Source: Yoonia sp. R2331 (GTDB taxonomy: Bacteria > Pseudomonadota > Alphaproteobacteria > Rhodobacterales > Rhodobacteraceae). Taken from it: DNA of 64,000 nucleotides. The stretch spans positions 2,108,001 through 2,172,000 of the forward strand of contig NZ_JBGCUN010000001.1 in NCBI RefSeq assembly GCF_041103235.1. Reading direction: 5' to 3'. How positions within the stretch are numbered: position 1 is the stretch's first letter; each line of letters starts with the position of its first letter. The position numbers were made by a program, and so were the translations under genes. Under the pieces are notes generated by a model. That model was not told the DNA's origin. It ran no database searches and saw only the letters and a list, made by a program, of their open reading frames with translations. This document shows, in pieces, positions 26,518 through 49,111 of the stretch.

Positions 26518-26918
26518 GTCGTGCTCCGATGGTACGGTGTGAAAGCTGTTTTCAGGTCGGCGGGCCACGGTGCCGCGCGGCCTGTTTCGTTGATATAGAC
26601 AAGGGTCGAGGAGCAGGAAAAGCGACACTCACGGCCTGCATGAGCGTCGATTTCGAGCCCAAGGCTGGAGCGTCCGACGCGCGCCACTGCAAGCGTCAAA
26701 AGCAATTCATCGCCATGTCGGCTGGGTGCGGAAAAGCGGGTTTCGATCTGCGCTGTGGGCACGCCCGACTGCTTGTGGATGTCCTCAAACGGGAAACCGA
26801 GCTTTGCAAAGAACGCCTCGACGCAATCGTTGATCATCTCGAAGTATCGCGGATAGAAAACGATGCCCGCAGGGTCGCAGTGCCGGAACAGCACCTTTTG
26901 AGGGAAGGTAAAGACCAT
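26514..26918 (-). CDS. Hotdog acyl-CoA thioesterase (4HBT family)
   Basis: 134-residue thioesterase of the 4-hydroxybenzoyl-CoA thioesterase type. FRHCDPAGIVFYPRYFEMINDC (about residues 12-33) holds the catalytic Asp and the substrate-proximal loop. In CoA-dependent aromatic degradation such enzymes act as housekeeping hydrolases that release CoA from dead-end thioesters; this gene class was reported in anthranilate clusters of Azoarcus evansii, as I recall. It overlaps the RidA gene by four bases and follows the ligase gene by 12 bases. Confidence 0.88.
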   Translation of the reverse strand: MVFTFPQKVLFRHCDPAGIVFYPRYFEMINDCVEAFFAKLGFPFEDIHKQSGVPTAQIETRFSAPSRHGDELLLTLAVARVGRSSLGLEIDAHAGRECRFSCSSTLVYINETGRAAPWPADLKTAFTPYHRSTT

Positions 26919-26930
26919 CGCGAAGCAGCC

Positions 26931-28541: not shown

Positions 28542-28553
28542 GATTGGATCCCC

Positions 28554-29714
28554 CTAAGCTGGCATTTGGCCAAGTGTTTGACGGGCGATGACCACACGCT
28601 GAACGTCTGATGCGCCTTCATAGATGCGCAATGCCCTGATTTCGCGGTATAAAGCCTCGACCGTTTCGCCCGAGCGCACTCCGTCGCCACCATGCAGTTG
28701 CACGGCTTTGTCGATGACTTTTTGCGCCTGATCGGTGGAAAACAGTTTTGCCATTGCCGCCTCGCGCGTGATGCGCGGCGCGCCGTTGTCCTTGGTCCAG
28801 GCGGCGCGGTAGATCAGCAAGGCGCTGGCGTCGATATCGACGGCCATATCCGCAATATGGCCCTGCACCATTTGCAGATCAAACAAGGGCGCACCCTGAA
28901 CGTGGCGGGTGGTGACGCGGGTCAATGCCTCGTCCAGGGCGCGGCGTGCAAAACCAAGGGCGGCGGCGGCGACGGTGGACCGGAAGACATCCAGAACCGA
29001 CATGGCGATTTTGAAACCCCAGCCGCTTTGGCCGATCAGCGCGTCCTTGGGCAGACGGCAATCCGCAAAGCGCAAGGTTGCCAAAGGATGCGGCGCGATG
29101 GTCTCAAGCCGCTCAACCACCGTCAGGCCGGGCGTATCGGCAGGCACCACAAAGGCCGACAGCCCCTTTGCCCCCGCCCCATCGCCGGTGCGGGCAAAGA
29201 CCGTGTAGACATCCGCGATCCCGCCGTTGCTGATCCAGGTCTTGTCGCCATTCAGGACGTAGTGATCGCCGTCCAGGGTCGCTGTCATCGTCGCGTTCGC
29301 CACGTCCGAGCCTGATTGCGGTTCGGTCAATGCAAAGCCGAAGATCGCCGCACCGCTGCGCACCTTCGGGAGCCAAGCGCGTTTCTGCGCATCTGTCCCA
29401 AACAAGGACAAAGCACCGGTGCCAAGGCCCTGCATTGCAAAGGCAAAATCGGCCAGCCCATCATGCCGCGCAAGGGTTTCGCGGATCAAACACAAGCTGC
29501 GGACGTCAAGCGGGGCATCCCCGTCTGGATCGACAGCCGCGTGGGACAACCAGCCGGCTTTGCCCAGCGCCGACACAATCGCGCGGCAGGCCGCATCTGT
29601 ATCGCTGTGGTCGATCTGGGTCATGTTGTCCTTGGCCCAGATGTCCACGGCGGCGGCAAGATCACGGTGGAGATCGTCAAAGAAGGGCCAGTTCAGGAAC
29701 GTGGTATCAGCCAT
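28554..29714 (-). CDS. Acyl-CoA dehydrogenase of the anthranilate operon
   Basis: 386-residue FAD-dependent acyl-CoA dehydrogenase. [20 protein letters not shown] (FAD/substrate site, about residue 127), [15 protein letters not shown] and the C-terminal [12 protein letters not shown] with the catalytic-base Glu are all present. It would introduce the double bond in the ring or ring-opened CoA ester during beta-oxidation-like steps after 2-aminobenzoyl-CoA is dearomatised. It shares one base with the upstream enoyl-CoA hydratase stop codon (TGATG) and lies 12 bases before the ligase gene. Confidence 0.9.
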
Positions 29715-30514
29715 CAGTCACCTTTGAACACGGGTGTTTCTTTGGCGACGAAGGCGTTGAACGCGCGTTCGAAATCCGCCGTTTGCATGCAGATCGCCTG
29801 CGCCTGCGCTTCTGCTTCGATGGCCTGTTCGATCGACATCGACCATTCCTGCGCCAGCATTGTTTTGGTCATCATGTGCCCAAAGTTCGGACCCGCCGCG
29901 ATGCGCGTGGCCATCTTGTGCGCTTCGCCTGGCAGGTCATCCGCCGGGACCACCTTGTTGAGGAACCCCCATGCGGCACCCTCCTCTGCGGACATGGCGC
30001 GGCCCGTGTAGAGCAATTCGGCAGCGCGGCCCTGGCCGATGATCCGGGGCAGAATTGCGCAGGCCCCCATGTCACACCCCGCAAGGCCGACCCGCGTGAA
30101 CAAAAAGGCCGTCTTTGCCTCTGGCGTTGCAATCCGCAAATCAGAGGCCATCGCGATGATCGCCCCGGCGCCAACGCAGACCCCGTCAATCGCGGCGATC
30201 ACGGGTTTGCCGCAGTTCACAATTGCCTTGACCAGATCACCGGTCATGCGGGTGAACGCCAACAGCTCTTTCATGGACATTTTCGTGAGCGGCCCGATGA
30301 TGTCATGCACATCCCCGCCAGAGCTGAAATTCCCACCATTGGATGCAAACACAACTGCGTTCACATCGTCCGCATAGACCAGATCACGAAACCAATCGCG
30401 CAACTCGGCATAGCTTTCGAATGTCAGCGGGTTCTTGCGGTCTGGCCGATCCAGGGCCACGGTCGCAATCCCATCCGTGATCTCACATTTGAAGTGTTTG
30501 ACGTCCGTGCGCAT
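29714..30514 (-). CDS. Enoyl-CoA hydratase/isomerase family protein
   Basis: 266-residue crotonase-fold enzyme. The oxyanion-hole segments are [17 protein letters not shown] (about residue 57-73) and [20 protein letters not shown]. The usual catalytic Glu of hydratases in the PEV-G-L-P loop is replaced: the region reads [18 protein letters not shown], so it may be an isomerase, ring hydrolase or hydratase with an Asp base. I chose the ATG at 30514, which overlaps the MarR stop (TGATG); a GTG one codon earlier is possible. Likely acts on the ring intermediate of the anthranilate pathway. Confidence 0.85.
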
Positions 30515-30987
30515 CACGTGTCCTTTTCTGCAAGTGCCGCTTCGAGGCTTTCTAAACGCACCCCGATATCAACGGCTTCGGCGGCGGAAAAATCCGCGAG
30601 CATGTCATTGATCCAGGCCTCATGGGCCTGCGCTTGTCGGGCAAATTCTTCGCGGCCGCGTTGTGTCAGCCGCACCAATGACGCCCGCCGATCCCCTGGC
30701 ACGGCCACCCGCAGCAACAAACCGTCATCGGTCAGGCGGTCCACGATGCCGGTGACATTTCCGTTGGACACACGCAGCACACCGGACAGGGCGCTCATCT
30801 TCAGGCCGTCTTCGTACCGCGATAAGGCGGCCATGACGTCAAAGCGGGGCAAGGTCGTCGCAAACTCGTCCCGCAGGTTTTCACGCAAATTGGATTCGAT
30901 TGACCGGCTTGCTTTCAACAGACGCAGCCAAAGGCGTAGCCGTTCCTTGGACGCAGAATTGTGGGTCACTGGTGACTGTTCCGACAT
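30514..30987 (-). CDS. MarR family transcriptional regulator of the anthranilate operon
   Basis: 157-residue winged-helix regulator. The recognition-helix and wing region [41 protein letters not shown] (about residues 72-112) is typical MarR. Similar regulators in aromatic-CoA clusters respond to the CoA thioester substrate. It is embedded inside the operon, coupled to the dehydrogenase upstream and the hydratase downstream, so it is likely autoregulated with the pathway. A candidate operator is the palindrome at 34069-34095. Confidence 0.88.
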
Positions 30988-31721
30988 CAGATTTCGCCCC
31001 CCGAAAGGCTGAGCGTGTGGCCATTGATCGACCGCGCCGCGTCAGAGCAGAGCCAAAGGGCCGTTCCTGCGACTTCATCGGTCTGAATGAACCGCCGTTG
31101 CGGATTGCCTTTGGTCAGGGATTTTGCCGCGTCTTGCGCGCTCATCCCGGTCTTGTCGACGATATTGGCGATGGAGCGTTCGGTCATCGGGGTTTCGATG
31201 AAGCCGGGGCAGATGGCGTTCACGGTGATCCCCGTGGATGCAAGTTCAAGGGCCAGCGCGCGGGTCAATCCGATGACGCCATGCTTGGCCGCGCAATAGC
31301 CTGCCACATAGGGATAACCCTTGAGGCCAGCGGTCGACGCGATTGCAATCATGCGCCCGTTTTGGGCCGCCTTCATGTCTGGCAAGGCCGCCTGCCAGAC
31401 GTTGAACACCCCTGCCACGTTGACGTCCATCATCGCCGTCAGATCGGCGGCGGTCATTTTGGCAAACGGAACGCTGTTCGCCGCACCAGCATTGGCGACT
31501 ACGACGTCAATTGCGCCCTGTGTGTCGCGGGCCGCGTCAAACGCCGCCGCGACCTGAGCCGCGTCCGTCACATCACAGACCCGATAGGGCAAATTCTGTG
31601 CCTTGAGCGAGTCTTCGGTCCGGCCCATGATCGTCACGCGATACCCAGCGCGGGCAAAATGACGCGCGGTTTCGGCGCCAACGCCGCTGCCGCCGCCGGT
31701 GATAACAACGTGTCCGGTCAT
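30987..31721 (-). CDS. SDR family 3-hydroxyacyl-CoA dehydrogenase-like oxidoreductase
   Basis: 244-residue classical short-chain dehydrogenase. [20 protein letters not shown] binds the cofactor, NAGAAN follows, and Ser-Tyr-Lys are found in [23 protein letters not shown] with YCAAK as the catalytic pair. The C-terminal [10 protein letters not shown] and LSLSGGEI fit the BadH/HBDH type that oxidises ring hydroxyl groups of CoA esters. The ATG at 31721 overlaps the monooxygenase stop (ATGA), and the gene's own stop overlaps the MarR start. It probably oxidises a hydroxy intermediate after 2-aminobenzoyl-CoA monooxygenation/reduction. Confidence 0.88.
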
Positions 31722-34012
31722 ACTTTGCCCACCATTTCTGCCTCGCGATCTGCCAGCCGCCATGCCTGGTCGCGGCCAGCCTCGTAAGGTTGCGGCCAGA
31801 TTTCCTGACGATCCCCAAGTCCGGTGGCTGCGTGCAATGTCCAATAGGGATCGTTCAGATGTGGCCGCGCAAGGCAGACCAGATCAGCGCGGCCCGCCAT
31901 CAGGATCGAATTGACGTGGTCGGCCTCGTAGATATTGCCGACCGCCATCGTCTTGATGCCCGCCACGTTGCGGATGCGGTCCGAGAACGGCGTCTGGAAC
32001 ATGCGACCATAGACGGGCTGGCTGAGGGTCGAGGTTTGCCCCGCTGACACGTCAATGATGTCCGCGCCCACGGCTTCGAACATCTGCGCGATCTGCACCG
32101 CATCTTCGGCGGTGACGCCATCATCACCGGCCCAATCGCTGGCGGAGATGCGGACAGACATTGGTTTTTCCGCGGGCCACACTGCGCGCATGGCGCTGAA
32201 CACCTCAAGCGGATAGCGCATCCGGTTTTCCAAGCTGCCGCCATAATCGTCTGTCCGGACATTGGACAAAGGCGAGATGAAAGAGGAGATCAGATAGCCG
32301 TGCGCTGCGTGCAGTTCGATCATGTCAAAGCCGCTGGCTGCAGCCATTTTTGTGGCCGCGACAAATTCTGCCTTCACCCGCGCCATATCTGCGCTGTCCA
32401 TCGCCTTGGGCACAGCGTTGTCGTCAGACCAGGCCATCCCAGAGGCCGACAGAAGCGGCCAGTTGCCGGACGTCATAGGCTGGTCCATGCCCTCCCACCC
32501 GAGGCGGGTTGACCCCTTGCGGCCTGCGTGGCCGATCTGGCAACAGGTTTTCGCCTGCGTTTCGGCATGGATGAAGTCGTTCAATCGTGTCCACTGGGCC
32601 TGATGTTCAGGCGCGTAAAGCCCCGGACAGCCGGGCGTGATCCGGCCATCAGCAGAGACGCAGGTCATTTCGGTATAGACCAATCCCGCGCCGCCCTTGG
32701 CACGTTCGCCGTAGTGGATCAGGTGCCAGTCCGTCGGGGCGCCATCCACGGCCTTGTATTGCGCCATTGGTGACACCACGATGCGGTTCTTGAGCGTCAT
32801 GTCGCGCAGGCTGAACGGCGCGAACATGGGTGCGCGCGCGGGTCCGTTCACCTGAACACCCGCCTGCGCCATGAACCATTCTTCAGCGGCACCCAGCCAC
32901 ACCGGATCGCGTTCGCGCAGGTTTTCGTGGCTGATCCGCTGCGACCGCGTCAACATGGAGTAATTCAGTTGCACCGGATCAAGATGCAGATAGCGTTCCA
33001 CATCCTCGAACCATTCAACCGAATTGCGCGCGGCAGATTGCAGGCGCAACACCTCAAGCCGGCGACTTTCTTCGTATGTTTCAAAGGCGGTGGCCAAATC
33101 TGGTGTCGCGGTGATTTCAGCGGCCAGCGCAATCGCGCTTTCAAGGGCAAGCTTTGTGCCGGACCCGATTGAGAAATGCGCCGTGGCAGAGGCGTCGCCC
33201 AGCAGAACCACGTTCTTGTGACTCCAGTTTTCGCACAGAACGCGCGGGAACCTGATCCAGGCGGAGCCGCGAATGTGGTTGGCGTTGGTCATCAAAGGAT
33301 GACCGCCAAGGTGATCTTTGAAAATCTCTTCGCAGATCGCGATGCTGGCTTTCTGATCCAGATCACCAAAGCCGTATGCATCAAATGTCTCTTGCGCGCA
33401 TTCGACGATGAATGTCGCGGTGTCGTCGTCAAACTGGTAGGCGTGCGCCCAGACCCAGCCTTTGTCTGTGTCCTCAAAGATGAATGTGAAAGCATCGTCG
33501 AACTTCTGATGCGTGCCCAGCCACACGAATTGACAAAGCCGCGTGTCGATGTCCGGTTTGAACACGTCTTCGAACTCTGTCCGGGTTCTGGAATTCAGCC
33601 CGTCTGCAGCGACGACAACGTCGTAATCCGCCATTAGGTCAGAGGCCGCAATGTCACCGGATTCAAACCTCAGATCGACGCCAAGGTCGGCGGCGCGGGC
33701 ATGCAGGACCTGCAACAGCTTTTTGCGCCCGATGCCGCAGAACCCGTGACCGGAGGACACGAGTTTCTGGCCCTGATGGTGAAGAGCGACATCATCCCAA
33801 TAGGCAAAATGCGCGCGGATTTCCTTGGCGCTGACAGGGTCGTTCGCTTCGAGGTTTGAAAGGGTTTCGTCGGACAGGACCACGCCCCAGCCGAAGGTAT
33901 CATCGGGCCTGTTCCGCTCGAACACGACAACCTCTGCGGCGGGTCTGCGCAGCTTGACCGAAATCGCGAGATAGAGGCCAGCTGGCCCTCCTCCGAGACA
34001 TGCAATGCGCAT
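31718..34012 (-). CDS. abmA: 2-aminobenzoyl-CoA monooxygenase/reductase, two-domain flavoenzyme
   Basis: 764 residues in two fused halves. Residues 1 to about 380 are a PHBH-type FAD monooxygenase ([15 protein letters not shown] at the N terminus, then [24 protein letters not shown]). Residues from about 395 form an Old Yellow Enzyme-like FMN barrel ([47 protein letters not shown]). This architecture is that of 2-aminobenzoyl-CoA monooxygenase/reductase and of salicylyl-CoA 5-hydroxylase. It hydroxylates and reduces the ring of 2-aminobenzoyl-CoA with NADH and oxygen. The adjacent ligase gene supports the anthranilate assignment. First gene of the operon; start ATG at 34012. Confidence 0.88.
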
Positions 34013-34068
34013 TTGACACCCCTGGATCAAGTTGTTGCTTTTTCACGCTATGAACATCGCTGTTAAAT

Positions 34069-37415: not shown

Positions 37416-37459
37416 TTGACATGATGTCACACCATCGAACTTACTAAACCGTATAGTAA
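37416..37459 (+). promoter_or_regulatory. Promoter/operator region of the TTT-NicX-ligase operon
   Basis: TTGACA at 37416-37421 lies inside a TGACAT-G-ATGTCA palindrome (37417-37429). A second perfect palindrome, TTACTA-N7-TAGTAA (37441-37459), covers the region where a -10 element should be (TTACTA sits 19 bases after TTGACA). The arrangement suggests a repressible promoter; the TetR domain encoded in the operon is the natural candidate to bind it. Confidence 0.5.
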
Positions 37460-37478
37460 AATAAACAGGGAGATAAGA

Positions 37479-38423
37479 ATGAAAACGTTGACATCCACCG
37501 CCTATCTGATCGCGGCAACGGTGCTTGCGTCTGCAAGCCCTGCCTTGGCCGAATATCCCGAAAAGCCCGTGTCCTTTGTGGTTCCCTTTCCGCCCGGCGA
37601 TGTTGAAGACGTGCTGACACGGATGATCGCCGAAGACTTCGAGGCGGCCTATGGAATCCCCGCAGCTGTTGTAAACAAGCCAGGTGGCGGCGGCGGCCCC
37701 TTCCCCGGCGCAATCGAAGTCGCGGGTGCACCTGCAGATGGCTACACTATCGGGTCTTTTGTTATGGACGTGCCGCTTGTCGGGCCGCTGATCGGTATTC
37801 CACCTTTGAACCCGAACCCGTTCGAGCCTGTTGGCATTTTCGTAGCCTACCCAATGGTCATCGCGACAACGAACGACGCACCCTATCAGACCATGGAAGA
37901 ACTGGCGGCTTATGCGGCCGACAATTCTGTCGTTCTGGCACATTTTGGACCAGATCTGACACCAACGCAGGTGACCTTTGCCATGGCGTCGCAGATGGGC
38001 TTTGAATATGGTGCCGAGGCTGCGTTTGATGCCATTGATTGCAATACCTTCGCATCTGGCGATGCGGATGTCGGCAACACGTCCATCCAATTGTTGCTGC
38101 CCTGTCTGGACGACATGACGATCCTTGCAACTTTGACAACTGATCGTCTTCCGATGACGCCAGACAGCCCGACGGTTGGCGAAATCCGGCCCGAGCTTAA
38201 TCTGGGAATGTGGAACGGTCTGTTCGTCCATGCGGACACACCAGCAGACGTGCGCGAAAAGATCGCAGCCGTCGCAGCCAAGACAATGGCGTCAGATCGC
38301 GCCAAGGAGTTCGCGGCGCAAACAGGTGCTGTCGTCTATTGGCAGAACGCCGAAGAAGCTGCTGCTCAGATCGATGCCGACATGGTCGTTATGGGCACGA
38401 TGGCTGAAATCCTCGGTCAATAA
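37479..38423 (+). CDS. tctC: Tripartite tricarboxylate transporter substrate-binding protein (TctC)
   Basis: 314-residue periplasmic Bug-family receptor. Signal peptide MKTLTSTAYLIAATVLASASPALA (cleavage near 24), then YPEKPVSFVVPFPPGD, PGGGGGPFPGAIEVAGAPADGYTIGSF and DSPTVGEIRPELNLGMWNGLFVHADTP. The Gly-rich segment and PADVREKI are typical. Two internal Cys near residue 190 and 210 are unusual and could form a disulfide. It lies at the head of the operon while the membrane subunits are about 7 kb downstream, an unusual bracketed arrangement that ties all intervening genes to the imported compound. Confidence 0.9.
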   Translation: MKTLTSTAYLIAATVLASASPALAEYPEKPVSFVVPFPPGDVEDVLTRMIAEDFEAAYGIPAAVVNKPGGGGGPFPGAIEVAGAPADGYTIGSFVMDVPLVGPLIGIPPLNPNPFEPVGIFVAYPMVIATTNDAPYQTMEELAAYAADNSVVLAHFGPDLTPTQVTFAMASQMGFEYGAEAAFDAIDCNTFASGDADVGNTSIQLLLPCLDDMTILATLTTDRLPMTPDSPTVGEIRPELNLGMWNGLFVHADTPADVREKIAAVAAKTMASDRAKEFAAQTGAVVYWQNAEEAAAQIDADMVVMGTMAEILGQ

Positions 38424-38435
38424 TCGAAAAACGGC

Positions 38436-38459
38436 GTGCGCGCGCCGATGCGCGCGCAC
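38436..38459 (+). other. Strong GC hairpin between tctC and the NicX-like gene
   Basis: A perfect 10-bp stem (gtgcgcgcgc / gcgcgcgcac) with loop cgat starts 13 bases after the tctC stop. No T tract follows, so it is more likely an RNA-stabilising or partial attenuation structure that raises the tctC share of the message than a full terminator. Confidence 0.6.
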
Positions 38460-38485
38460 CTTGTCCCAATCAGAAAGCTCGGCAG

Positions 38486-39532
38486 ATGATGCAAGAAATC
38501 CCAGAGGGAAAGTGGGTCTCTTCGTTCAAGCGCGTGTTCACGCTAAACGGCATAGGGCCCGGCACTCAGGTCGCGATTGTCGCGGAGACACAGTCGCGCC
38601 CCGTGCTGGGGCAATTGGCTGGCCTTGCCCTGCATGATCTGGGCGCAGAGTATTCGACGATTGTTCTGCCAACCGCGGCGCAAACCGCACCTGTGCCTGT
38701 GAAATCGACCGGAACCAGTGACGCGATCCAGCACAAGCGCCACGTGATCGAGGCGCTGAAACACGTTGAAGTCATTGTCGATGTCACCGTCGAAGGCCTG
38801 ATCCATGCCGAAGAAATGGCAGAGATCGAACAGGCGGGCACGCGGCTGCTTGTGATCTGCAATGAACACCCCGAAATTCTTGAACGCACCGAGCCGCGCG
38901 CAGAGCTTGGCCCCAAGGTCGCGCTTGGTATTCAGATGCTGAACGACGCCTCGGAGATGCGCGTGACCTCGGATGCGGGCACCGATCTGACGATCAACAT
39001 CAAAGACGCACCTTGCGGCGGCACGCCCGGTTTTTCCACACGCCCCGGCGCGGTTGACCATTGGCCCGGTGGCTTGTGCCTGTGTTTTCCCGGTGAAAAC
39101 GCTGTGAATGGCACGGTTGTCATGGACGTGGGCGACATGAACCTGACGTTCAAAGACTATTTGCGCAATCAAGTCGCGATGACGGTCGAAAATGACTACG
39201 TCACGGACATTCGGGGCGACAACCTCGACGCTGAATTGTTCCGCGAATACCTTGCTGCGTGGGACGACCCCAAGGCCTATGGCTTTTCGCATGTTGGCTG
39301 GGGCATGAACCCCGCCGCCCGGTGGGAGAGCCTTGCGCTTTATGACAAGGGCGACATTCAGGCGACCGAATTCCGCGCTTGGGCGGGCAATTTCTTGTGG
39401 TCCACAGGTTCAAATCAATACGCAGGCCGTTTCACGCTGGGGCATTTTGACCTGCCGATGCGCGGCTGCACCATTTCACTTGATGGCACGCCGGTTGTCA
39501 TCAAAGGCAAACTTCAAGGAGATCTGGCATGA
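38486..39532 (+). CDS. NicX-like M29-fold ring-cleaving dioxygenase
   Basis: 348 residues aligning by eye along its length with 2,5-dihydroxypyridine 5,6-dioxygenase (NicX), an Fe(II) extradiol-like enzyme built on the M29 aminopeptidase fold. Shared blocks: DHWPGGLCLCFPGE, GTVVMDVGDMNLTFKDY, DPKAYGFSHVGWGMNP, WAGNFLWSTGSNQYAG and GHFDLPMRGC. His269, His320 and Asp322 fall where I recall the NicX iron ligands His265, His318 and Asp320. No nicC or nicF gene is near, so its substrate may differ from 2,5-dihydroxypyridine. It ends in ATGA overlap with the next gene. Confidence 0.8.
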   Translation: MMQEIPEGKWVSSFKRVFTLNGIGPGTQVAIVAETQSRPVLGQLAGLALHDLGAEYSTIVLPTAAQTAPVPVKSTGTSDAIQHKRHVIEALKHVEVIVDVTVEGLIHAEEMAEIEQAGTRLLVICNEHPEILERTEPRAELGPKVALGIQMLNDASEMRVTSDAGTDLTINIKDAPCGGTPGFSTRPGAVDHWPGGLCLCFPGENAVNGTVVMDVGDMNLTFKDYLRNQVAMTVENDYVTDIRGDNLDAELFREYLAAWDDPKAYGFSHVGWGMNPAARWESLALYDKGDIQATEFRAWAGNFLWSTGSNQYAGRFTLGHFDLPMRGCTISLDGTPVVIKGKLQGDLA

Positions 39533-40839
39533 CCACGTTCCACGACTATTACGACACCGACGGGTTCGCGCCAGAGTTCTTGCGGATGATGGAACTCGCC
39601 AATGAGCTTGGCCCGACAATCGCGGAACGCGCCGTACAGGTCGACAAGGACGCGTCTTTCCCCACCGAAAACTACGAAGACTTTGCCAAGCACGGCTTTC
39701 TGCGCCTTGTGATCCCGAAAGAGTTTGGCGGTTTCGGGTTCTCACTTGGTCAATATGCAATGATCGGCGCGGAGATCGGCAAATACTGCGGCGCGACGGC
39801 CCTGACGTTCAACATGCACACCTCATCCATGATGTGGTCACGATTCATGTATGAGCTTCCCAACCTGACCGATGCAGACCGCGCGGCCTTTGCCCCGCTG
39901 CGCGAACGTCAGTTCCGCAATGTTGTCGACAACAACGCGATCTATTCGCAGCCCATTTCCGAAGGTGGCACCAATTGGACATCGAAACCGATCCAGACCA
40001 ACTGCAAGAAGGTTGATGGCGGATACCTGATCAACGGGTTCAAGAAATTCGCCTCGCTTGCGGGGTATTGTGACTATTACTCTATCGTCTGCACCGAACA
40101 TTTTGAGGGGGTCGAGCCGCGTCACGAAGATGCGATGAACTTTGCTGTTCACAAGGATTCACCCGGCTTGCAGGTTGTTGGCGAGTGGGATCCGATCGGT
40201 ATGCGCGGCACACATTCCAAAGACCTGATCCTTAAGGACGTGTTCGTCACGGAAGAAGAGATGATGATGCCGCAGGGTCTGTTCGTGCGCACATTGCCCC
40301 ATTGGCCGCATATGATGGCCACGCTGACGCCAGCCTATATGGGCGTGGCACAGGGCGCATATGATTACACCGTCAAGTATCTGAGCGGTAAAGTTGACGG
40401 GTTGCCGCCGATTGACCGCCGGGTTTATCCGACCAAACGTGCCACCGTCGCGAAGATGTATCAAAAGCTGATCGAGATGCGCACATTGTGGCACACGGCC
40501 TTTATGGAAGCGCGCGGCTTCCCGACCAAGGGACAGGTCATGCGACTTTATGCGGCGCAATATGCGGTGATGGAAGGCGTTCAAGAGATGACCGCGCTGG
40601 CGATCCGGACCTGTGGTGGTCAATCCATGCTGAAGTCCCTGCCGCTGGAACGCATGTATCGCGATAGCCGTTGCGGCGCGCTGATGCTTCCCTACACCAC
40701 TGAAATCATGGAAGACTACCTGTCTATGATGACGCTTTATGACATGGACGAAATCGACACCGTTGGCGCAGACCCGGAAGCTGTGCGCGCGCGTGTGTCC
40801 ATGTGGCGGCCAGCATCACCCGAAGCACCAAAGGCCTAG
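39529..40839 (+). CDS. Acyl-CoA-dehydrogenase-fold flavoprotein, possible flavin monooxygenase
   Basis: 436-residue ACAD-superfamily protein (LRLVIPKEFGGFGFSLGQYAMIGAEIGKYCG, GTNWTSKPIQTNCKKVDGGYLINGFKKFASL, GMRGTHSKDLILKDVFV, TCGGQSMLKSLPLER). The C-terminal position that carries the dehydrogenase catalytic Glu (YEGT-type) reads LPYTTEI at residues 387-393, without that Glu. Members of this fold that lack it often act as FMNH2-dependent monooxygenases with a separate reductase (HsaA, DszC types). A flavin reductase gene is encoded in the same operon at 44150. Function remains inferred. Overlaps the NicX-like gene by four bases. Confidence 0.8.
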   Translation: MTTFHDYYDTDGFAPEFLRMMELANELGPTIAERAVQVDKDASFPTENYEDFAKHGFLRLVIPKEFGGFGFSLGQYAMIGAEIGKYCGATALTFNMHTSSMMWSRFMYELPNLTDADRAAFAPLRERQFRNVVDNNAIYSQPISEGGTNWTSKPIQTNCKKVDGGYLINGFKKFASLAGYCDYYSIVCTEHFEGVEPRHEDAMNFAVHKDSPGLQVVGEWDPIGMRGTHSKDLILKDVFVTEEEMMMPQGLFVRTLPHWPHMMATLTPAYMGVAQGAYDYTVKYLSGKVDGLPPIDRRVYPTKRATVAKMYQKLIEMRTLWHTAFMEARGFPTKGQVMRLYAAQYAVMEGVQEMTALAIRTCGGQSMLKSLPLERMYRDSRCGALMLPYTTEIMEDYLSMMTLYDMDEIDTVGADPEAVRARVSMWRPASPEAPKA

Positions 40840-40847
40840 GATCAAGC

Positions 40848-42809
40848 ATGCGCGAGACGGTTCACTGCATTTCTCAGTCGACAGCCCCCCCAGACGATGT
40901 CTGGGCGACGGTCGCTGATTTCAATGTCGACTGGCACCCGATGGTGGCCTGGTCGAAGATCGAACCGCCCGCAAACGCCCAGATCATCCGCCGTTTTGCA
41001 ACCGGTGACAACGATGCGATCATGCGCGAACGGCTGACCTATTACAGCGCGAGCGATCATACGATGTCCTATGATATGGTCGAGGGGATCGCGGATGCGA
41101 AATCTTACAAGGCACGGTTGAAAATCTCGGAAAACGGGACGGGTTCGACCGTGACGTGGAACGCAGAGATCAACGCAAGCGCGGCCCGCGCAAAGGATAT
41201 TGCGGACGGCACGCGCGCCATTTTTGAAGCTGGCCTGGAAACACTTGTCTCGCCCCAAAGATCAGAGGCCCAAGGACATGAACCATTGCCTCAAAGCTCG
41301 GTTCGGCACCTGACATTAGGGAAAACGCCCTGTCTTGGCCTGAGCGTCGCACCCGAGGGGCTGGAGGCCGCCGAGACAATCTGCCTGTTCCTGCACGGAA
41401 TCGGGGGCAACCGCAGGAACTGGGACGATCAGGTCGCCGCTTTGGCGCATATCATGCCCACCGTTGCCCTTGATCTGCGAGGATATGGGGAAAGCACGCT
41501 GGGGTTTTCGCCGTCCCAATTGGACAGCTATTTCGATGATATTCAGACCGTTATGGCCAAGTTCGGTGCAAAAAAGGTCGTGCTGTGCGGGTTAAGTTAC
41601 GGGTCATGGATCGCGGCAAGCTTTGCATTAGCGAATCCCGACAAGATGTCCGGTTTGGTGTTGTGCGGCGGCTGTACGGGCATGTCCGAGGCGGACCCCG
41701 ATGAACGCGAGTCGTTCCGCGTCTCAAGGGAAGTGCCGCTGGATGCCGGTCAGACCCCCGCAGATTTTGCGTCAGGAGTGGTCGACATCATCGCCGGTCC
41801 GTCTGCATCGCCAGAGATACGCGCGAAGCTGCACGCATCAATGGCAAGGATTCCTGCCGCAACGTATCGCGATGCGTTGAATTGTTTTTGCAACCCGCTA
41901 GAAAAGCTCGACTTTGCCAATGCCAGCTTCCCCGTTCTTCTGATGACGGGGGAGCACGACAGATTGGCACCGCCCGCAGAAATCCGCACTGTCAGCCACC
42001 GCTTTGCGGATGCGAACGCGCCACTGGTGATGTTTGAGGTCATTGCTGATGCGGGCCATGTCTGTAACCTTGAGCAGCCCGATGCTGTGAACGCCCAATT
42101 GGCAAAATTCCTGAAGGTTGTGAGCCCCCCTGCCAGCGCGTCGCCCAAGACCGCGCGAAAGAGCACCAAACACGCCCGCATTCTGGACGCCGCCCTGCGC
42201 GAGTTTTCAAAGAACGGCTATTCCGGTGCATCCATGCAGGCGATTGCGGAGCGTGCCGAAGTCTCAAAACCGACGCTTTATCAGTACATTGGCCGTAAGG
42301 AAGACATCTTTCGCGCGGTCCTTGATCAGGGGCGCGCCAAGATCCTGGCACCCTTGGCCGGATCCGGTGATACGCCGATGGTCACAACCCTTTGGAACTT
42401 TGCATGGGGTTATGCCCGCTATGTTTTGCACCCCGACAACCTGTCGATTGCCCGTCTGATCATTGGCGAAGCCGAGCGCGTGCCGGACATTGCACGTCAG
42501 TTCCATGACGCCGGTCCCGCACGTGCGCACGCGGGGATCTGTGACTATCTTGAAACGCAACGCACAAACAAGAAACTGTCGTTTGAGCGCCCCGGCATCG
42601 CGGCAGAACACCTTTGGTCCTTGATCCTGTCGGGGCCGCGCAACCACGCGCTTCATTTTCCGCATGATTTGCCGGATCACGCGACGATTTCAGAGACAAT
42701 CATCAGCGGATTGCAGGTGTTCCTGCGCGCCTATTCCACCGATCCCGAGACTGACCTGGCTGCTTTGGCCGATCTTGGCCAAGACAGCCCCCCACGGAGA
42801 ACGACATGA
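40848..42809 (+). CDS. SRPBCC - alpha/beta hydrolase - TetR three-domain fusion protein
   Basis: One uninterrupted 653-residue frame. Residues 1 to about 135 are an SRPBCC/polyketide-cyclase-like ligand-binding domain (DDVWATVADFNVDWHPMV). About 150-425 is an alpha/beta hydrolase with LFLHG at 180-184, Ser250 in GLSYGS, Asp371 in GEHD and His404 in DAGHV, so the triad is complete. About 440-640 is a TetR regulator: ARILDAALREFSKNGYSGAS, then AEVSKPTLYQYIGRKEDIF as recognition helix. The ATG at 40848 has an AGGA site; an upstream GTG or ATG start is less likely. Overlaps the next gene by ATGA. An enzyme joined to a DNA-binding repressor is very unusual. Confidence 0.85.
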   Translation: MRETVHCISQSTAPPDDVWATVADFNVDWHPMVAWSKIEPPANAQIIRRFATGDNDAIMRERLTYYSASDHTMSYDMVEGIADAKSYKARLKISENGTGSTVTWNAEINASAARAKDIADGTRAIFEAGLETLVSPQRSEAQGHEPLPQSSVRHLTLGKTPCLGLSVAPEGLEAAETICLFLHGIGGNRRNWDDQVAALAHIMPTVALDLRGYGESTLGFSPSQLDSYFDDIQTVMAKFGAKKVVLCGLSYGSWIAASFALANPDKMSGLVLCGGCTGMSEADPDERESFRVSREVPLDAGQTPADFASGVVDIIAGPSASPEIRAKLHASMARIPAATYRDALNCFCNPLEKLDFANASFPVLLMTGEHDRLAPPAEIRTVSHRFADANAPLVMFEVIADAGHVCNLEQPDAVNAQLAKFLKVVSPPASASPKTARKSTKHARILDAALREFSKNGYSGASMQAIAERAEVSKPTLYQYIGRKEDIFRAVLDQGRAKILAPLAGSGDTPMVTTLWNFAWGYARYVLHPDNLSIARLIIGEAERVPDIARQFHDAGPARAHAGICDYLETQRTNKKLSFERPGIAAEHLWSLILSGPRNHALHFPHDLPDHATISETIISGLQVFLRAYSTDPETDLAALADLGQDSPPRRTT

Positions 42810-44146
42810 AAGACATACTGGACGCCAACAAAACGCGCTTTATCACGGTTGCGATGACGGACACCAATGGCCTTTTGCGCGGGCAGAAAGTGTCCCGCAA
42901 GTCGTTTGAAGGTATTTTGAAGGCCGGTATGGGGATGGCGCCGGTGACGTTCGCGCTCGACCCGACGGACGAATTTCTGGACATTCCGGGCGTGACCGAT
43001 GAAAGCGCCGATTTCCATGACAGTCCGCTAACGGTTGATCCAAGCACGGTCCGCGCGATCCCGTGGGAAAAGGACGGCGATGACCTGTTGGTCTTGTCGA
43101 ACTACACCGGTGAGACGGCGGGCATGTGCCCGCGGTCCTTGCTGGCGTCGGTTCTGGACAAAGGGGCGAACGCGGGGCTGAACCTGAAATACGGGCTAGA
43201 GCTGGAGTACATGCTGTTCAATGAAACGGCCGAAACCCTGCGGGAAAAGGGGTTTCGCAACCTCACCCCCGCCACCACGCACGCCAGCCACGACCTGTTG
43301 ATCTATCAAACCACCCAATCGCAATGGTATTCGGACGTGGCCGACATGTGCGAGGCGCTCAAGATTGATCTGGCCAAGATGCATGAGGAAATCGGCGCGG
43401 GCTTCATGGAGGCCTGCACCGGTGCCGGCACCGGGCTTGCGCCAGCCGACCAGACCGTCTTGCTGAAGAATTTCATGCGGGCGCTGGCCACCCGGCAGGG
43501 CAAGACCATCACCTATATGGCGCGCTGGTCGGAAGAGGCTGACAGTCAATCGGCCCATGTTCATCTGTCGCTGATAGGGGCCGATGGCACACCGCTGTTC
43601 TGGGACGAAAGCAAGCCCGACAATATGTCAGACACGTTTCGCCACTTTCTTGGGGGGATGCAGACCTACCTTGGCGAGATGATGTTGCTGTTTGCACCAA
43701 CCGTGAATTCGTACCGTCGTTTTGCGCCGGGTACCTTTGCGCCGCCTGCCCTGACCTGGGGGATCGAGAACCGCACCACATGCTTGCGGGTTGTTGGCCA
43801 TGACGCGGGGTCCTTGCGGGTTGAAAACCGCTTGCCCGGATCGGATGCAAATCCTTACCTGACCGTTGCGGCAACGCTGGCCGCCGGGTTGGCCGGGATC
43901 GCCGAAAAGATCGAGCCGGACGCCGCCGTCGTGGGCAATGGCTATGTGCCGTCCGATACCGAACCGCGGGATTACCCGCGCAACATGCGCGACGCCATTG
44001 CAGCCCTTCGCGCCAGTGCATTTGCACGCGAATGGCTGGGGGATGTCTTTGTTGATGCCTTCACTGCGACCCGTGAAAGTCAGGACAATGCCTTTATGGG
44101 TATGGTCCCGGACACAGAGCTGCGTCGCTTTTTCGAGTTAGGATAG
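42806..44146 (+). CDS. Divergent glutamine synthetase-like gamma-glutamyl ligase
   Basis: 446-residue GlnA-superfamily protein. It keeps YGLELEYMLFN, a His-rich AHVHLSL strand, NSYRRFAPGTFAPPALTWGIENRTTCLRVVG and VENRLPGSDANPYLTVAA, but differs from the two Puu-like ligases at substrate positions: GPGQFEIN is replaced by GAGFMEAC, FMAKP by YMARW and GSGMH by SQSAH. It therefore probably conjugates glutamate to a different, perhaps aromatic, amine, as AtdA1/TdnQ do in aniline degradation. Starts inside the fusion gene stop codon and is followed three bases later by the flavin reductase gene. Confidence 0.82.
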   Translation: MKDILDANKTRFITVAMTDTNGLLRGQKVSRKSFEGILKAGMGMAPVTFALDPTDEFLDIPGVTDESADFHDSPLTVDPSTVRAIPWEKDGDDLLVLSNYTGETAGMCPRSLLASVLDKGANAGLNLKYGLELEYMLFNETAETLREKGFRNLTPATTHASHDLLIYQTTQSQWYSDVADMCEALKIDLAKMHEEIGAGFMEACTGAGTGLAPADQTVLLKNFMRALATRQGKTITYMARWSEEADSQSAHVHLSLIGADGTPLFWDESKPDNMSDTFRHFLGGMQTYLGEMMLLFAPTVNSYRRFAPGTFAPPALTWGIENRTTCLRVVGHDAGSLRVENRLPGSDANPYLTVAATLAAGLAGIAEKIEPDAAVVGNGYVPSDTEPRDYPRNMRDAIAALRASAFAREWLGDVFVDAFTATRESQDNAFMGMVPDTELRRFFELG

Positions 44147-44149
44147 ACC

Positions 44150-44653
44150 ATGCTGCGCGCGCAATTTATCGACGGAATGGCCAATGCAGCCTGTTCTGTC
44201 TATGTCGTAACAACGGACGGGATTGCGGGCCGCCGCGGTGTGACGGTCAGCGCCGTATCTTCTGTCTCTGCTGACACGCCGAAGCCGACGTTGTTGACTT
44301 GTGTCCACCACCTGTCGCCTGCCGCCGCAGCCATCCGCACCAACCGCACGTTTTGCGTCAACCTGTTGCGCGATGATATGACGACCATCTCAAACGCGTT
44401 TGCCGGGCGCACGGAGGCCAAGGATGAAGCAAAATTCGACTGTGCCACGTGGACCAAAGGCGAGACAGGCAGCCCTATGCTGGATGGGGCGCTGACCGCA
44501 TTCGATTGTGTGGTGCAGCATGACATCATGTGCGGCAGCCACCATATTTTTGTGGGCGAAGTCCAGCAGGTGAAGATGTCATCTGGCGAAAAGGCCCTGA
44601 TCTACGCCAATCGCGGCTATAACAACGCCCAACCACTTGATGATCTTATATGA
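44150..44653 (+). CDS. Flavin reductase (HpaC-like, FMN-binding split barrel)
   Basis: 167-residue protein of the flavin reductase domain family. FIDGMANAACSVYVVTTDG, GVTVSAVSSVSADTPKPTLLTCVH and NRTFCVNLLRDDM (about residues 63-75) are the standard flavin/NADH elements, followed by GEVQQVKMSSGEKALIYANRGY. It would supply reduced FMN or FAD to a partner oxygenase, the best candidate being the ACAD-fold protein at 39529. Its stop overlaps the next gene start (ATGA). Confidence 0.88.
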   Translation: MLRAQFIDGMANAACSVYVVTTDGIAGRRGVTVSAVSSVSADTPKPTLLTCVHHLSPAAAAIRTNRTFCVNLLRDDMTTISNAFAGRTEAKDEAKFDCATWTKGETGSPMLDGALTAFDCVVQHDIMCGSHHIFVGEVQQVKMSSGEKALIYANRGYNNAQPLDDLI

Positions 44654-45387
44654 AGATCGGCGTTCTTGTCGCAGGCGTCTTGCCTGAAAAACTGTCGCAG
44701 CGGTTCGCGGGCTATGGCGAGATGTATGCCGCGTTGTTGGGTGGGTTGGGTTACACGTTTCGCCATTACGATGTCCGTAACGGCGATTTTCCGGCAGCAG
44801 CGGATGAAGCCGATGCCTGGCTAATCACAGGGTCCAAAAACGGGGTTTATGAGGATGAGCCTTGGATCAAGACCCTGAAAACCTGCCTATCCGATATCCT
44901 GAAATCGGACCGGCCGGTTGTGGGTATCTGTTTCGGCCATCAAATCCTTGCAGATGTTCTGGGCGGAAGGGTCGCAAAATTCGACGGCGGCTGGACGGTC
45001 GGACGGACCCGGTACTGCCTGCGTCAGGGCACGACACTGCACGCAATTGCCTGGCATCAGGATCAGGTGCTTGCGCTTCCACCCGGTGCTGTTCGGCTTG
45101 CCAGCTCTGACAGCTGCGAAAACGCGATGATGATGGTGGGTGGCCATGTCCTTGGCATCCAACCGCATCCGGAATTTGACGCGGCAATCATGCGCATAGC
45201 TCTTGACGCCTATGGCGACATCTTACCTGCAGATCTTTCCCAAGCTGCGCGCGCCACAGCGCATGAACCCGTTGCACGCGATGCTTTGGTCGCGATGATC
45301 GATACGTTTCTGCGGTCCAAGGTGCGTGCGCCTGACCAACTGCAGCAAAAGGTGCTTCAAGCCATGTCTCGGTCAGAGGCAGCCTAA
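44650..45387 (+). CDS. Class I glutamine amidotransferase, paralog of the Puu-region hydrolase
   Basis: 245-residue amidotransferase with nucleophile GICFGHQ (about residue 97), AIAWHQDQV and IQPHPEF. It matches the protein encoded at 18171 along its length (AGYGEMYAALLGGLGYTF, ITGSKNGVYED, GRVAKFDGGWTVGR), so the two are paralogs. Placed beside the divergent ligase at 42806 it probably hydrolyses a gamma-glutamyl amide intermediate, as AtdA2/TdnT-type partners do in aniline pathways. The tctB start lies five bases after its stop. Confidence 0.87.
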   Translation: MKIGVLVAGVLPEKLSQRFAGYGEMYAALLGGLGYTFRHYDVRNGDFPAAADEADAWLITGSKNGVYEDEPWIKTLKTCLSDILKSDRPVVGICFGHQILADVLGGRVAKFDGGWTVGRTRYCLRQGTTLHAIAWHQDQVLALPPGAVRLASSDSCENAMMMVGGHVLGIQPHPEFDAAIMRIALDAYGDILPADLSQAARATAHEPVARDALVAMIDTFLRSKVRAPDQLQQKVLQAMSRSEAA

Positions 45388-45391
45388 CGTC

Positions 45392-45937
45392 ATGGCATCG
45401 TCACGCACCACCCAGTTTGTCCGCCTGTTTCACCGCGAACGCCGCCGAGGAGATTTGGTTTTTGCCGTCGTCTTCCTTGTCTTCTCTGCGTTCATGTTCG
45501 CATCCATGGGATCGCAGACAATATGGGCTGAAGGAACGGCCCTTTATGCGCAGCCAAGGTTCTGGCCAGCAGTTTCACTGGCTGGCATGACCTTCTTCGC
45601 GACGCTCCACTGGATCGGGTCCGCATTATCGCCGCGCCTGCCTGGCCGGTGGCAGGAAATCTGGCTATGGGCGCGTTCGGTCGAGTACGCGGCGTGGTTT
45701 CTGGGGTATGTCCTTTTGGTTCCCTTTTTGGGCTACCTGATCGCCACGCTGTTGGCTGGTGCGGCCCTGATGATCAGAGTTGGCTACCGTAGTTTTGCGG
45801 CCATTGGCGGCATGATCCTGACGAATTTCATCATCGTCCTGACTTTCAAATCAACCCTGAAGGTCAATCTGCCCGGTGGCGCCATCTACGAATATCTTCC
45901 CACCGCATGGCGCAGCTTTATGCTGACCTACTTCTAA
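45392..45937 (+). CDS. tctB: Tripartite tricarboxylate transporter small membrane subunit (TctB)
   Basis: 181-residue protein with four predicted helices and the TctB layout: an N-terminal basic stretch, VFLVFSAFMFASM, YAQPRFWPAVSLAGM and a C-terminal FKSTLKVNLPGGAIYEYLP that precedes the last amphipathic segment. Chosen start is the ATG at 45392 (MASSRTTQFVRLFHRE). Works with TctA and the TctC receptor at 37479. The tctA gene follows after 12 bases. Confidence 0.87.
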   Translation: MASSRTTQFVRLFHRERRRGDLVFAVVFLVFSAFMFASMGSQTIWAEGTALYAQPRFWPAVSLAGMTFFATLHWIGSALSPRLPGRWQEIWLWARSVEYAAWFLGYVLLVPFLGYLIATLLAGAALMIRVGYRSFAAIGGMILTNFIIVLTFKSTLKVNLPGGAIYEYLPTAWRSFMLTYF

Positions 45938-45949
45938 GGAACCTCATTC

Positions 45950-47425
45950 GTGGACATCCTGCTTTCAGGTTTTGGAATTCTGGCGCGATGGGATGTCGTG
46001 GCCGCCCTGCTTGTCGGGTCGATTGGGGGCGTCATCATCGGCGCGATCCCCGGTGTTGGTGCCGCTGTTGCGATTGCCATTTTGCTGCCCGCGACGTTTG
46101 CCTTTGACCCAATTGTGGGCCTGACGGCGCTGCTCGGGATTTATGGGTCATCCATGTATGGCGGGGCCATTCCCGCGATCCTGATCAACACACCCGGCAC
46201 AGCCGTGAACGCGCTGACCACTTATGACGGCTATCCGATGACCAAGCGGGGCGAGGCACCGCGGGCGCTGTCACTGGCCTATTCCGCCTCTTTCTTTGGC
46301 GGCATTTTCTCTGTGTTGTGTCTGATGATCCTGTCGCCCTTGCTGGCATTGATCGCGCCCCATTTCGGCGCGCGGGAGATATTCCTTGCGGCGCTTTTGG
46401 GTGTCATCCTTGTGATTATCGCCCACCGCGGTCAGGTCTTTGCCGCAGGGATGTTGGCGTGTTTCGGGATCTTCTTGCAGACAATCGGGCTGGAGCCGGT
46501 CAAATATTCCACCCGATATACCTTTGACCAAACATGGCTGGCCTCTGGCCTTGACCTGATCGTGGTTGTTCTGGGGCTTTTTGCCTTCTCTCAGGCATTC
46601 TTGTTGTTGGTCGAAGACAACGTAACGCCGCATCCCCAGCCTGTGAAAGGCCAGCTGACCGCGGGGCTGAAAGAGCTGATGGGACACAAACGCCTTGCGT
46701 CCGTGTCATCGTCATTTGGTGTCCTGATGGGCATGATTCCGGGCGTCGGTGAGTTTACGGCGCAGTTCATGTCCTACACTTATGCGCAAAAGAAATCGGC
46801 AGCGCCTGAGCTGTTCGGCAAAGGGGCACCCGATGGATTGATCGCGTCCGAAGCGGCAAACAACGCCGTCCCTGCTGCGGCGATGATCCCGCTTTTGGCC
46901 TTGGGCATTCCGGGCGAGGCGCTGACCGCGATGATGCTGTCAGTGTTCTACGTTCACAACGTCGTGCCTGGCCCACAATTGTTCCAGAACGACATGGATT
47001 TCGTGATGGCCATTTATCTGGCCATGCTGATCCTGAATGTTCTGGTGATCGGCTTTTTGCTGGTGTCCACAAACCTGCTGACCAAGATCATTCAGATACC
47101 GACGCGCCCGCTTGGTATTGTCATTCTGATCCTGGGGTTTGTCGGTGTCTATTCACTGCGCAATTCCATCACGGATTGTGCCATCGCTGCAGGGTTTGGT
47201 GTGTTTGGGTTGGTGCTCAAGCGTCTCAACCTTCCCGTTGTGCCGATCATCCTTGGCATTGTTCTGGGCGGCATCATGGAATCCAAGCTGCGCATCGCGA
47301 TGGGGCGGGTCGAGACTCCGCTGGACTTTATCAATCGCCCGATCGCCGGATTCCTCTTTGTCGTGATTTGCGTCATTCTTGCGCGGCAGGCATTTGCGTT
47401 CAGCCGCGGCCTGCGCGCACGCTAA
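45950..47425 (+). CDS. tctA: Tripartite tricarboxylate transporter large membrane subunit (TctA)
   Basis: 491-residue permease with about eleven helices. GAIPGVGAAVAIAILLPATFAFDP near the N terminus, GIYGSSMYGGAIPAILINTPGTAVNALTTYDGYPM and the repeat GMIPGVGEFTAQFMSYTYAQKKS are the TctA signature. The start is a GTG (45950) preceded by TAAGGA. Last gene of the operon; beyond it the phaR gene is convergent, 43 bases away, with no clear terminator in the gap. Substrates of this class include aromatic and dicarboxylic acids, so the imported compound is probably an acid. Confidence 0.93.
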   Translation: MDILLSGFGILARWDVVAALLVGSIGGVIIGAIPGVGAAVAIAILLPATFAFDPIVGLTALLGIYGSSMYGGAIPAILINTPGTAVNALTTYDGYPMTKRGEAPRALSLAYSASFFGGIFSVLCLMILSPLLALIAPHFGAREIFLAALLGVILVIIAHRGQVFAAGMLACFGIFLQTIGLEPVKYSTRYTFDQTWLASGLDLIVVVLGLFAFSQAFLLLVEDNVTPHPQPVKGQLTAGLKELMGHKRLASVSSSFGVLMGMIPGVGEFTAQFMSYTYAQKKSAAPELFGKGAPDGLIASEAANNAVPAAAMIPLLALGIPGEALTAMMLSVFYVHNVVPGPQLFQNDMDFVMAIYLAMLILNVLVIGFLLVSTNLLTKIIQIPTRPLGIVILILGFVGVYSLRNSITDCAIAAGFGVFGLVLKRLNLPVVPIILGIVLGGIMESKLRIAMGRVETPLDFINRPIAGFLFVVICVILARQAFAFSRGLRAR

Positions 47426-48014: not shown

Positions 48015-48124
48015 GGGCGTCCCTCCCAAGACGTGTTGCAGTGCAGAGAAGCCTAAGCGGCGTTGCAGCAAAATGAAAGTGTCGCGTGACCAATTGCGCG
48101 CACAACCTTGCGTCCGCAAGCGCG

Positions 48125-48661: not shown

Positions 48662-48665
48662 AAAG

Positions 48666-48678
48666 TATAGTTACTATA
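48666..48678. promoter_or_regulatory. Palindromic operator upstream of the tandem winged-helix regulator and VOC gene
   Basis: TATAGT-T-ACTATA is a perfect 6-bp palindrome around a central T, located in the 40-base gap between the divergent regulator and VOC genes. It overlaps the likely -10 area of the plus-strand promoter, as expected for a repressor site. Confidence 0.6.
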
Positions 48679-48701
48679 TTTTTTGACCAAAGGAAAGTGC
48701 C

Positions 48702-49079: not shown

Positions 49080-49086
49080 CAAGAAA

Positions 49087-49111
49087 GGCGCATCCGGGAA
49101 TGGGGTGCGCC
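49087..49111 (+). terminator. Hairpin repeat A after the VOC gene
   Basis: A 9-bp stem (ggcgcatcc / gggtgcgcc, one wobble) preceded by aagaaa, seven bases after the VOC stop. A near-identical element follows the next gene at 49952, so these are copies of one terminator-like repeat. A short T tract is missing. Confidence 0.6.

Follow-up and report, generated by a model that had tools for sequence, protein, structure and literature searches.

The nic clusters contain the iron-dependent dioxygenase NicX (EC 1.13.11.9), which the consulted sections of the structural report describe as the defining member of a dioxygenase subtype, with activity reported for 2,5-dihydroxypyridine alone (PMC7910607). 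According to the same sections, its iron is held by His265, Ser302, His318 and Asp320, whereas Glu177 and His189 hold the ring N1 and O1, and a double mutant (E177A/H189A) was reported to be inactive. Annotated nic clusters further include genes for a TetR regulator and an alpha/beta hydrolase. Aniline and isopropylamine are degraded by gamma-glutamylation routes, and several gamma-glutamylation pathways use a class I amidotransferase and an oxidation of the capped amine. The Puu putrescine pathway of Escherichia coli has an amine ligase of the glutamine synthetase (GS) fold, and for 1-naphthylamine the available part of one report gives glutamylation of the aromatic amine as the first catabolic step (PMC11335346). 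HpaH/C2, HsaA, DszC and the nitrososynthases have the acyl-CoA dehydrogenase (ACAD) fold without its catalytic Glu and work with a flavin reductase partner. Proteins related to these are encoded in one operon of Yoonia sp. R2331, located at positions 37479–47425 (+ strand) of a stretch of 64,000 nucleotides (the window; contig NZ_JBGCUN010000001.1, positions 2,108,001 to 2,172,000). The genome has 4.03 Mb, and the window is part of its contig 1. With a probability of about 0.5, this operon may encode a ring-cleaving catabolic pathway for an aromatic amine or amino acid of biogenic type that is handled as its gamma-glutamyl derivative. Among the titles and abstract beginnings considered, which cover the literature in part, no paper apparently describes this gene set.

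The nine genes encode, in this order, TctC, a NicX-like protein, an ACAD-fold flavoprotein, an SRPBCC/hydrolase/TetR fusion, a GS-like protein, a flavin reductase, a class I amidotransferase, TctB and TctA. Pfam models above their cut-offs back eight of them, the exception being the NicX-like gene. This order, with all genes in one direction, tctC first and tctBA last, had been given correctly in an initial annotation made from the sequence alone. Its statement that most junctions are ATGA overlaps was exaggerated, as such four-base overlaps are found at three of the eight junctions (nicX/acad, fusion/ligase and reductase/amidotransferase) and the remaining five are gaps of 3–62 bases. From the translations and the sequence letters, the fusion was taken to begin at ATG 40848 and TctB at ATG 45392. 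The tripartite tricarboxylate-type (TTT) importer is complete, with all subunits above the Pfam cut-offs: the receptor gene tctC (37479..38423, +; PF03401, 61 bits against a cut-off of 27) has relatives in other loci with the unit, tctB encodes the small membrane subunit (45392..45937, +; PF07331, 43 bits against 29, scored from GTG 45326) and tctA the large one (45950..47425, +; PF01970, 420 bits).

The genes form a catabolic unit conserved among marine and soil bacteria, with a core consisting of the NicX-like protein, the ACAD-fold protein, the SRPBCC-hydrolase and TetR. It was compared in 84 loci from Alpha- and Gammaproteobacteria (loci and genomes carry L and G numbers below), namely the best 80 of 112 NicX-like relatives in species genomes, identified by a scan that needs exact peptide seeds, and four of six plasmid records (60–80% identity). 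Counted among them is the window's own genome (L008, uncultured Rhodobacteraceae isolate 516-3Z), the NicX-like protein of which is 100% identical to that of the window. Shinella, Mesorhizobium, Sulfitobacter and Phaeobacter include cultured isolates with the unit. In 82 of the 84 loci (exceptions L011 and L041), the ACAD-fold gene lies within 250 bases 3' of nicX in the same orientation, and the hydrolase was likewise found in 82, being absent from L011 and from L012, where the contig is cut. A family-wide survey of 248 genomes, one per genus of the window's family, was done with limits of E 1e-60 for the NicX-like protein and E 1e-100 for both the ACAD-fold protein and the ligase. The NicX-like (at least 69% identity) and ACAD-fold (at least 68%) genes lie side by side in the identical 16 genomes, and the ligase occurs in 11 of these 16, at that locus only, and nowhere else in the 248. 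Conservation of the genes separately from one another, which the initial annotation had named as the outcome that would contradict a catabolic unit, was thus not what was found.

Beyond the core, the composition of the loci varies. Relatives of the ligase were found in 57 of the 84 loci (at least 50% identity), of the flavin reductase in 48 (at least 40%), with a second reductase type in 22, and of the amidotransferase in 14 (at least 25%); 32 loci carry a permease of the APC family. Among the 27 loci free of the ligase, six have a second GS-like gene and six others an MgsABC/GlxBCD-like trio, named by eye, of which one member matches glutamate synthase. Two further genes (at least 60% identity), one for a cupin resembling gentisate dioxygenase and one of the FAH family, occur together in the same 27 of the 84 loci; in 24 of these they precede nicX and share its strand. 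This module was considered as a part of the pathway and dropped: the cupin (at least 79% identity) is present in 13 genomes of the survey (5 of 16 unit-bearing against 8 of 232 others), and since eight of these 13 have no close NicX-like gene, the pair is regarded as an associated module only.

The NicX-like protein (38486..39532, +) has no match in Pfam or NCBIfam at E 0.01. It matches the solved NicX of Pseudomonas putida over residues 12–342 with E 9e-56. The four iron ligands His265, Ser302, His318 and Asp320 are retained in the alignment of all 84 NicX-like proteins, as are His105 and His189. Around the ring, Glu177 is replaced by Thr, Val175 by Gly and Trp187 by Val in 84 of 84, and the position of Glu308 holds Tyr in 83 proteins and Phe in one. 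By contrast, Glu177, Trp187 and Glu308 are all retained in three NicX proteins encoded in annotated nic clusters. In a tree, the 84 proteins group together (support 100/99), with seven proteins of a second cluster as sister group; several long branches were flagged. These data support the view that the protein is a putative ring-cleavage dioxygenase of a separate subfamily, with an intact iron site and a changed ring-recognition site. The ring-opening iron dioxygenase originally proposed is therefore kept as a prediction, whereas the dihydroxypyridine- or nicotinate-type substrate proposed with it is not, because Thr at position 177 in all 84 proteins makes 2,5-dihydroxypyridine an unlikely substrate. 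In the NicX of three nic clusters (L119, L120 and L121), Phe stands in place of His105 of the P. putida enzyme. One of these clusters (L119:491-10536), canonical in appearance, is carried by a plasmid of the diatom-associated Pseudosulfitobacter pseudonitzschiae, and a NicX relative is present in 39 Pseudosulfitobacter plasmid records.

The ACAD-fold flavoprotein (39529..40839, +; Pfam ACAD domains) was aligned with its relatives, and none of the 80 proteins compared (two of 82 were dropped for stops) has Glu where ACADs carry their catalytic base. This Glu is present in the product of a neighbouring ACAD gene (34118-35386). A flavin reductase of RutF/HpaC type is encoded in the operon (44150..44653, +; PF01613, 125 bits; RutF model 141 bits, under the cut-off of 255). 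The loss of the Glu together with this reductase supports the reading, proposed earlier, of the ACAD-fold protein as a hydroxylating two-component flavin monooxygenase of the same fold as HpaH/C2 and related enzymes. All 18 NCBIfam models that it matched scored far under their cut-offs (best 111 of 600 bits).

For the GS-like gene (42806..44146, +; PF00120, 281 bits), residues were read from an alignment of 55 ligases with E. coli GlnA and PuuA. The positions D50, Y179 and E327 of GlnA, which we take to be the ammonia site, are S or A, S and F in all 55 (P, T and Y in PuuA). The residues E129, E131, E212, E220, H269, R321, R339, R344, E357 and R359, presumably those for glutamate, ATP and metal, are retained in 55 of 55. 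Because the ammonia site is lost and the other residues are kept, the protein should be a gamma-glutamyl-amine ligase and not an enzyme of ammonia assimilation, and the gamma-glutamyl conjugation suggested in the initial annotation is supported. Among solved structures, it matches 5dm3 with E 6e-55, 7cql, which we assume to be a methylamine ligase, with E 9e-31 and the methylamine ligase 9qur with E 6e-25. The class I amidotransferase (44650..45387, +; PF00117, 45 bits against a cut-off of 23) has the Cys and His-Glu motifs and is a probable gamma-glutamyl hydrolase; among the proteins tested, the Cys motif was found in 11 of 11 (one of 12 dropped) and the His-Glu pattern used in five of these, two of which are the window itself.

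The fusion gene (40848..42809, +) combines SRPBCC (PF10604), alpha/beta-hydrolase (PF00561) and TetR (PF00440/PF14246) domains. GxSxG is present in 75 of 75 hydrolases (four of 79 dropped for stops), and Ser250, Asp371 and His404 (fragment numbering) are at least 95% conserved. Hydrolase and TetR share one frame in 21 of the 84 loci, are separate genes in 59 and are undecidable in four; the frame of L021 runs on much further. As the fusion recurs in 21 loci, it is no sequencing slip, and its earlier description was accurate. The deformylase of NicD type that had been suggested is not recognisable by sequence, as the best value in a comparison with hydrolases from two nic clusters was E 0.26.

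A second type of cluster (L098–L102) is a sister of the unit. It encodes a NicX-like protein (42–48% identity), a hydrolase, an ACAD-fold protein (48–50%) and an AMP-forming CoA ligase, the last assigned by running one of them against NCBIfam. Unit and sister cluster share the same three-enzyme core, and Glu177 is lost in both, being Val or Ile in seven of seven sister NicX proteins (L098–L104). They differ in that the CoA ligase replaces the gamma-glutamyl ligase, and that the sister hydrolase is about 260 residues long and without the SRPBCC part. In comparison with the hydrolases of nic clusters, it gives E 3e-5. Some of the sister loci carry importer genes that look TRAP-like. The core is thus paired with two different activating enzymes. 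From nic clusters, with which the unit shares the dioxygenase superfamily and identical iron ligands, it differs in the ring-recognition residues (84 of 84), in the ACAD-fold monooxygenase, in the gamma-glutamyl-type ligase (57 of 84) and in the rarity of a maleate isomerase (2 of 84 loci; NicF and NicC were not searched for). Compared with the gamma-glutamylation pathways, the unit adds an ACAD-fold two-component oxygenase and a NicX-like ring-cleaver in the same operon. A broader proposal, to which we give somewhat less than even odds, is that this whole branch of the NicX fold, in the unit and its CoA-ligase sister, no longer cleaves dihydroxypyridines and would instead open carbocyclic or benzo-fused rings that are capped with glutamate or activated with CoA, as an undescribed marine and soil pathway for aromatic amines.

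Hints at the substrate came from the genes around the unit. In L013, an amidotransferase, a P450, a second GS-like gene, HpaF, HpaE, HpaD, a pyridoxal-phosphate-dependent decarboxylase, HpaG and HpaH of the homoprotocatechuate (Hpa) route precede nicX in this order on the same strand; HpaD is above its curated cut-off and the remaining Hpa names were given by eye. Counted at 45% identity or more, relatives of these genes were found in L016 (decarboxylase, HpaG and HpaH), L056 (HpaG and HpaH), L051 (HpaH) and L032 (HpaE). Of two loci chosen for a nearby HpaD, L114 has relatives of HpaE, HpaG and HpaH near the unit, and L115, which apparently shares its contig with L037 but extends further upstream, has all six Hpa/decarboxylase genes of L013, separated from nicX by about 12 kb and other genes. 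In the family-wide survey, HpaD was present in 15 of 16 unit-bearing genomes against 67 of 232 others (Fisher p 3e-7, kinship ignored); counting only matches above the curated cut-off leaves 14 of 16 against 65 of 232 (p 3e-6, kinship ignored). With the seven genomes carrying the sister NicX added, the numbers were 21 of 23 against 61 of 225. The control PcaH showed no such enrichment (8 of 16 against 144 of 232, p 0.43). The APC permease, the second GS-like and MgsABC-like genes and the Hpa genes near or co-occurring with the unit suggest aromatic amines or amino acids as substrate class. The "acidic N-aromatic" substrate of the initial annotation was based on the TTT importer, yet 32 of the 84 loci have the APC-family permease.

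From these protein families, a pathway can be proposed in which each chemical step is inferred. The substrate would be imported by TctABC, or by other permeases in other loci, and its amine capped with glutamate by the ligase to a gamma-glutamyl amide. The ACAD-fold monooxygenase, supplied by the flavin reductase, would hydroxylate the ring, which the NicX-like dioxygenase would open next to the hydroxyl thus introduced. Cleavage of the ring-opened product could then fall to the SRPBCC-hydrolase, the amidotransferase-type enzyme might take off the glutamyl cap and the fused TetR may sense substrate or product. Phenol- or catechol-ethylamine-type compounds are the favoured substrates, a tentative choice well short of even chances, with indole-type compounds next. 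A subfamily with the iron site of NicX and altered ring recognition, nearly always accompanied by the same monooxygenase and often by a gamma-glutamyl-type ligase, offers a defined and testable route to new ring-cleavage chemistry. It also bears on what becomes of an aromatic nitrogen compound in the sea and the rhizosphere.

Several observations weigh against the amine pathway with glutamyl capping. Only 57 of the 84 loci have the ligase, although at least five of the 27 ligase-free loci end early downstream, and glutamyl capping may therefore be dispensable for the core. The cupin/FAH pair of 27 loci is left unexplained. Only two of the 16 genomes (G056 and G121) have HpaD at a distance of about 16 kb or less from nicX, the window's own HpaD match is under the curated cut-off, and the co-occurrence statistics ignore phylogeny. 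The alignment is loose in the loop from which the missing ACAD base was read; stops were present in 2 of 82 ACAD and 4 of 79 hydrolase translations, which were excluded from the alignments, and within the 16 genomes the ACAD match carries one stop in G056 and G191. Finally, the CoA-ligase/KynA context of a rival route is nearly as strong as that of HpaD.

This rival is a route from indole or a benzo-fused N-heterocycle to anthranilate, in which the monooxygenase would form a 3-hydroxyindole-like ring, the NicX-like enzyme would cleave its C-OH/CH-N bond to give a compound like N-formyl anthranilate, the hydrolase would deformylate it and a CoA ligase or the cupin/FAH module would finish the anthranilate. 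The local bond geometry resembles that of 2,5-dihydroxypyridine, and loss of Glu177 and Trp187 would fit a fused ring. A cluster of salicylyl-CoA/2-aminobenzoyl-CoA type adjoins the unit in L009 as in the window, and relatives of its CoA ligase (75–79%) lie near the unit in six loci (L004, L028, L029, L075, L083 and L087). In L004, a tryptophan 2,3-dioxygenase above its cut-off stands beside that ligase, with 87–92% relatives in L028 and L029 (all three Shinella), and L018 has a relative of the monooxygenase/reductase (47%). A tandem of the cupin, FAH and reductase genes with such a cluster in L105 also fits. The aminobenzoate-type CoA ligase is found in 12 of 16 unit-bearing against 71 of 232 other genomes (p 6e-4, kinship ignored) and KynA (E 1e-60) in the same 12 of 16 against 101 of 232 (p 0.02, kinship ignored), 69 of the 113 KynA matches being above the curated cut-off and that of the window below it. 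The other four of the 16 lack both at the limits used. The presumed substrate of the CoA ligase, 2-aminobenzoate, is deduced from neighbouring genes, and the highest-ranking NCBIfam model for this ligase, that of the benzoate-CoA ligase family, stays under the cut-off with 352 of 375 bits. Since the gamma-glutamyl ligase, the amidotransferase and the link to Hpa would all be left unexplained, we consider this route unlikely, albeit the strongest of the alternatives.

More doubtful is homarine or another N-methylated pyridine carboxylate, the ring opening and deformylation of which would yield methylamine or N-methylglutamate for the GS-like or MgsABC-like genes. NicX does open a pyridine ring, and a ring with an N-methyl group and a carboxylate at C2 would be compatible with the loss of Glu177. 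Upstream in L072 are genes that look by eye like a betaine-type ABC transporter, and the MgsABC-like trio occurs in six loci. Nevertheless, the ligase is only weakly like the solved methylamine ligases, with 9qur and the presumed one, 7cql, both far behind 5dm3, and HpaD would be left unexplained. A conserved homarine pathway involving Mgd is in print (2026, Nature Microbiology, 10.1038/s41564-026-02313-7), known here through the consulted part of PMC13390433. Ruegeria pomeroyi, which according to the available part of the literature draws homarine down, has no counterpart among the titles of the best 80 of 112 relatives, none of which names Ruegeria, though titles of metagenome-assembled genomes may hide the genus. 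A variant nicotinate or hydroxypyridine pathway on 2,5-dihydroxypyridine itself has on its side the full-length homology to NicX, and L073 and L075 each carry a true maleate cis-trans isomerase gene upstream of nicX. It is nonetheless very improbable, as Glu177, kept in NicX and in three nic-cluster proteins, is Thr in 84 of 84, the double mutant at Glu177 and His189 was reported inactive in the consulted sections of PMC7910607, the isomerase is found in two of 84 loci, and no gene of NicF or NicC type was noticed by eye in the listed loci, no aimed search having been made. We give just as little credit to a loose mosaic in which unrelated oxygenases happen to lie with an importer and a ligase for nitrogen assimilation. 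The loci do differ in their type of transporter, in the ligase and in accessory genes, but the core order is held in 82 of 84 across two bacterial classes, and the ligase has lost the ammonia site and is confined to the locus in the survey. A pathway for an aromatic amine or amino acid with glutamyl capping remains the preferred reading.

Some further genes were seen near the unit. Relatives of DMGDH/GcvT type lie near it in L006, L015, L035, L041, L064 and L072, and of OYE type in L006, L015, L040, L080 and L083 (of 84 loci). A hint at an N-methyl substrate from nearby N-methylamine oxidoreductases was not used, as such genes are common and no baseline was available. The flavin amine-oxidase-like genes seen by eye downstream of the unit in L024 and L043 each have no relative in the other loci. 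Directly upstream of nicX, L073 (8032-9866) and L075 (7891-9746) have a relative of the Nit6803-type nitrilase together with the isomerase mentioned above, which in L075 matches PDB 4fq7 with E 8e-97. At L110:3773-11036, a cupin and a reductase stand beside indolepyruvate ferredoxin oxidoreductase-like and kynurenine-formamidase-type genes (by eye), and the tandem of L105 covers positions 6650-18259.

In the window itself, Rfam at the gathering threshold gave no RNA family. The salicylyl-CoA/2-aminobenzoyl-CoA-type aerobic cluster is divergent from the operon (24914..34030, -; PRK08255, 1269 bits against 1078; pcaF, 628 against 597) and apparently complete, with a CoA ligase, monooxygenase/reductase, hydratase, pcaF thiolase, Rid-family gene, MarR-type regulator and others; we take it to be of the 2-aminobenzoyl-CoA type. 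On the other side, a gene set that looks by eye like one for polyhydroxyalkanoate (PhaR, phasin and PhaC) lies at 47469-52505 (-). Directly 5' of the operon and on the same strand (34118-37339, +), the ACAD gene with the catalytic Glu is followed by a FadJ-like gene, and this pair has a single close relative (67%, L056) among the fetched loci outside the window's genome.

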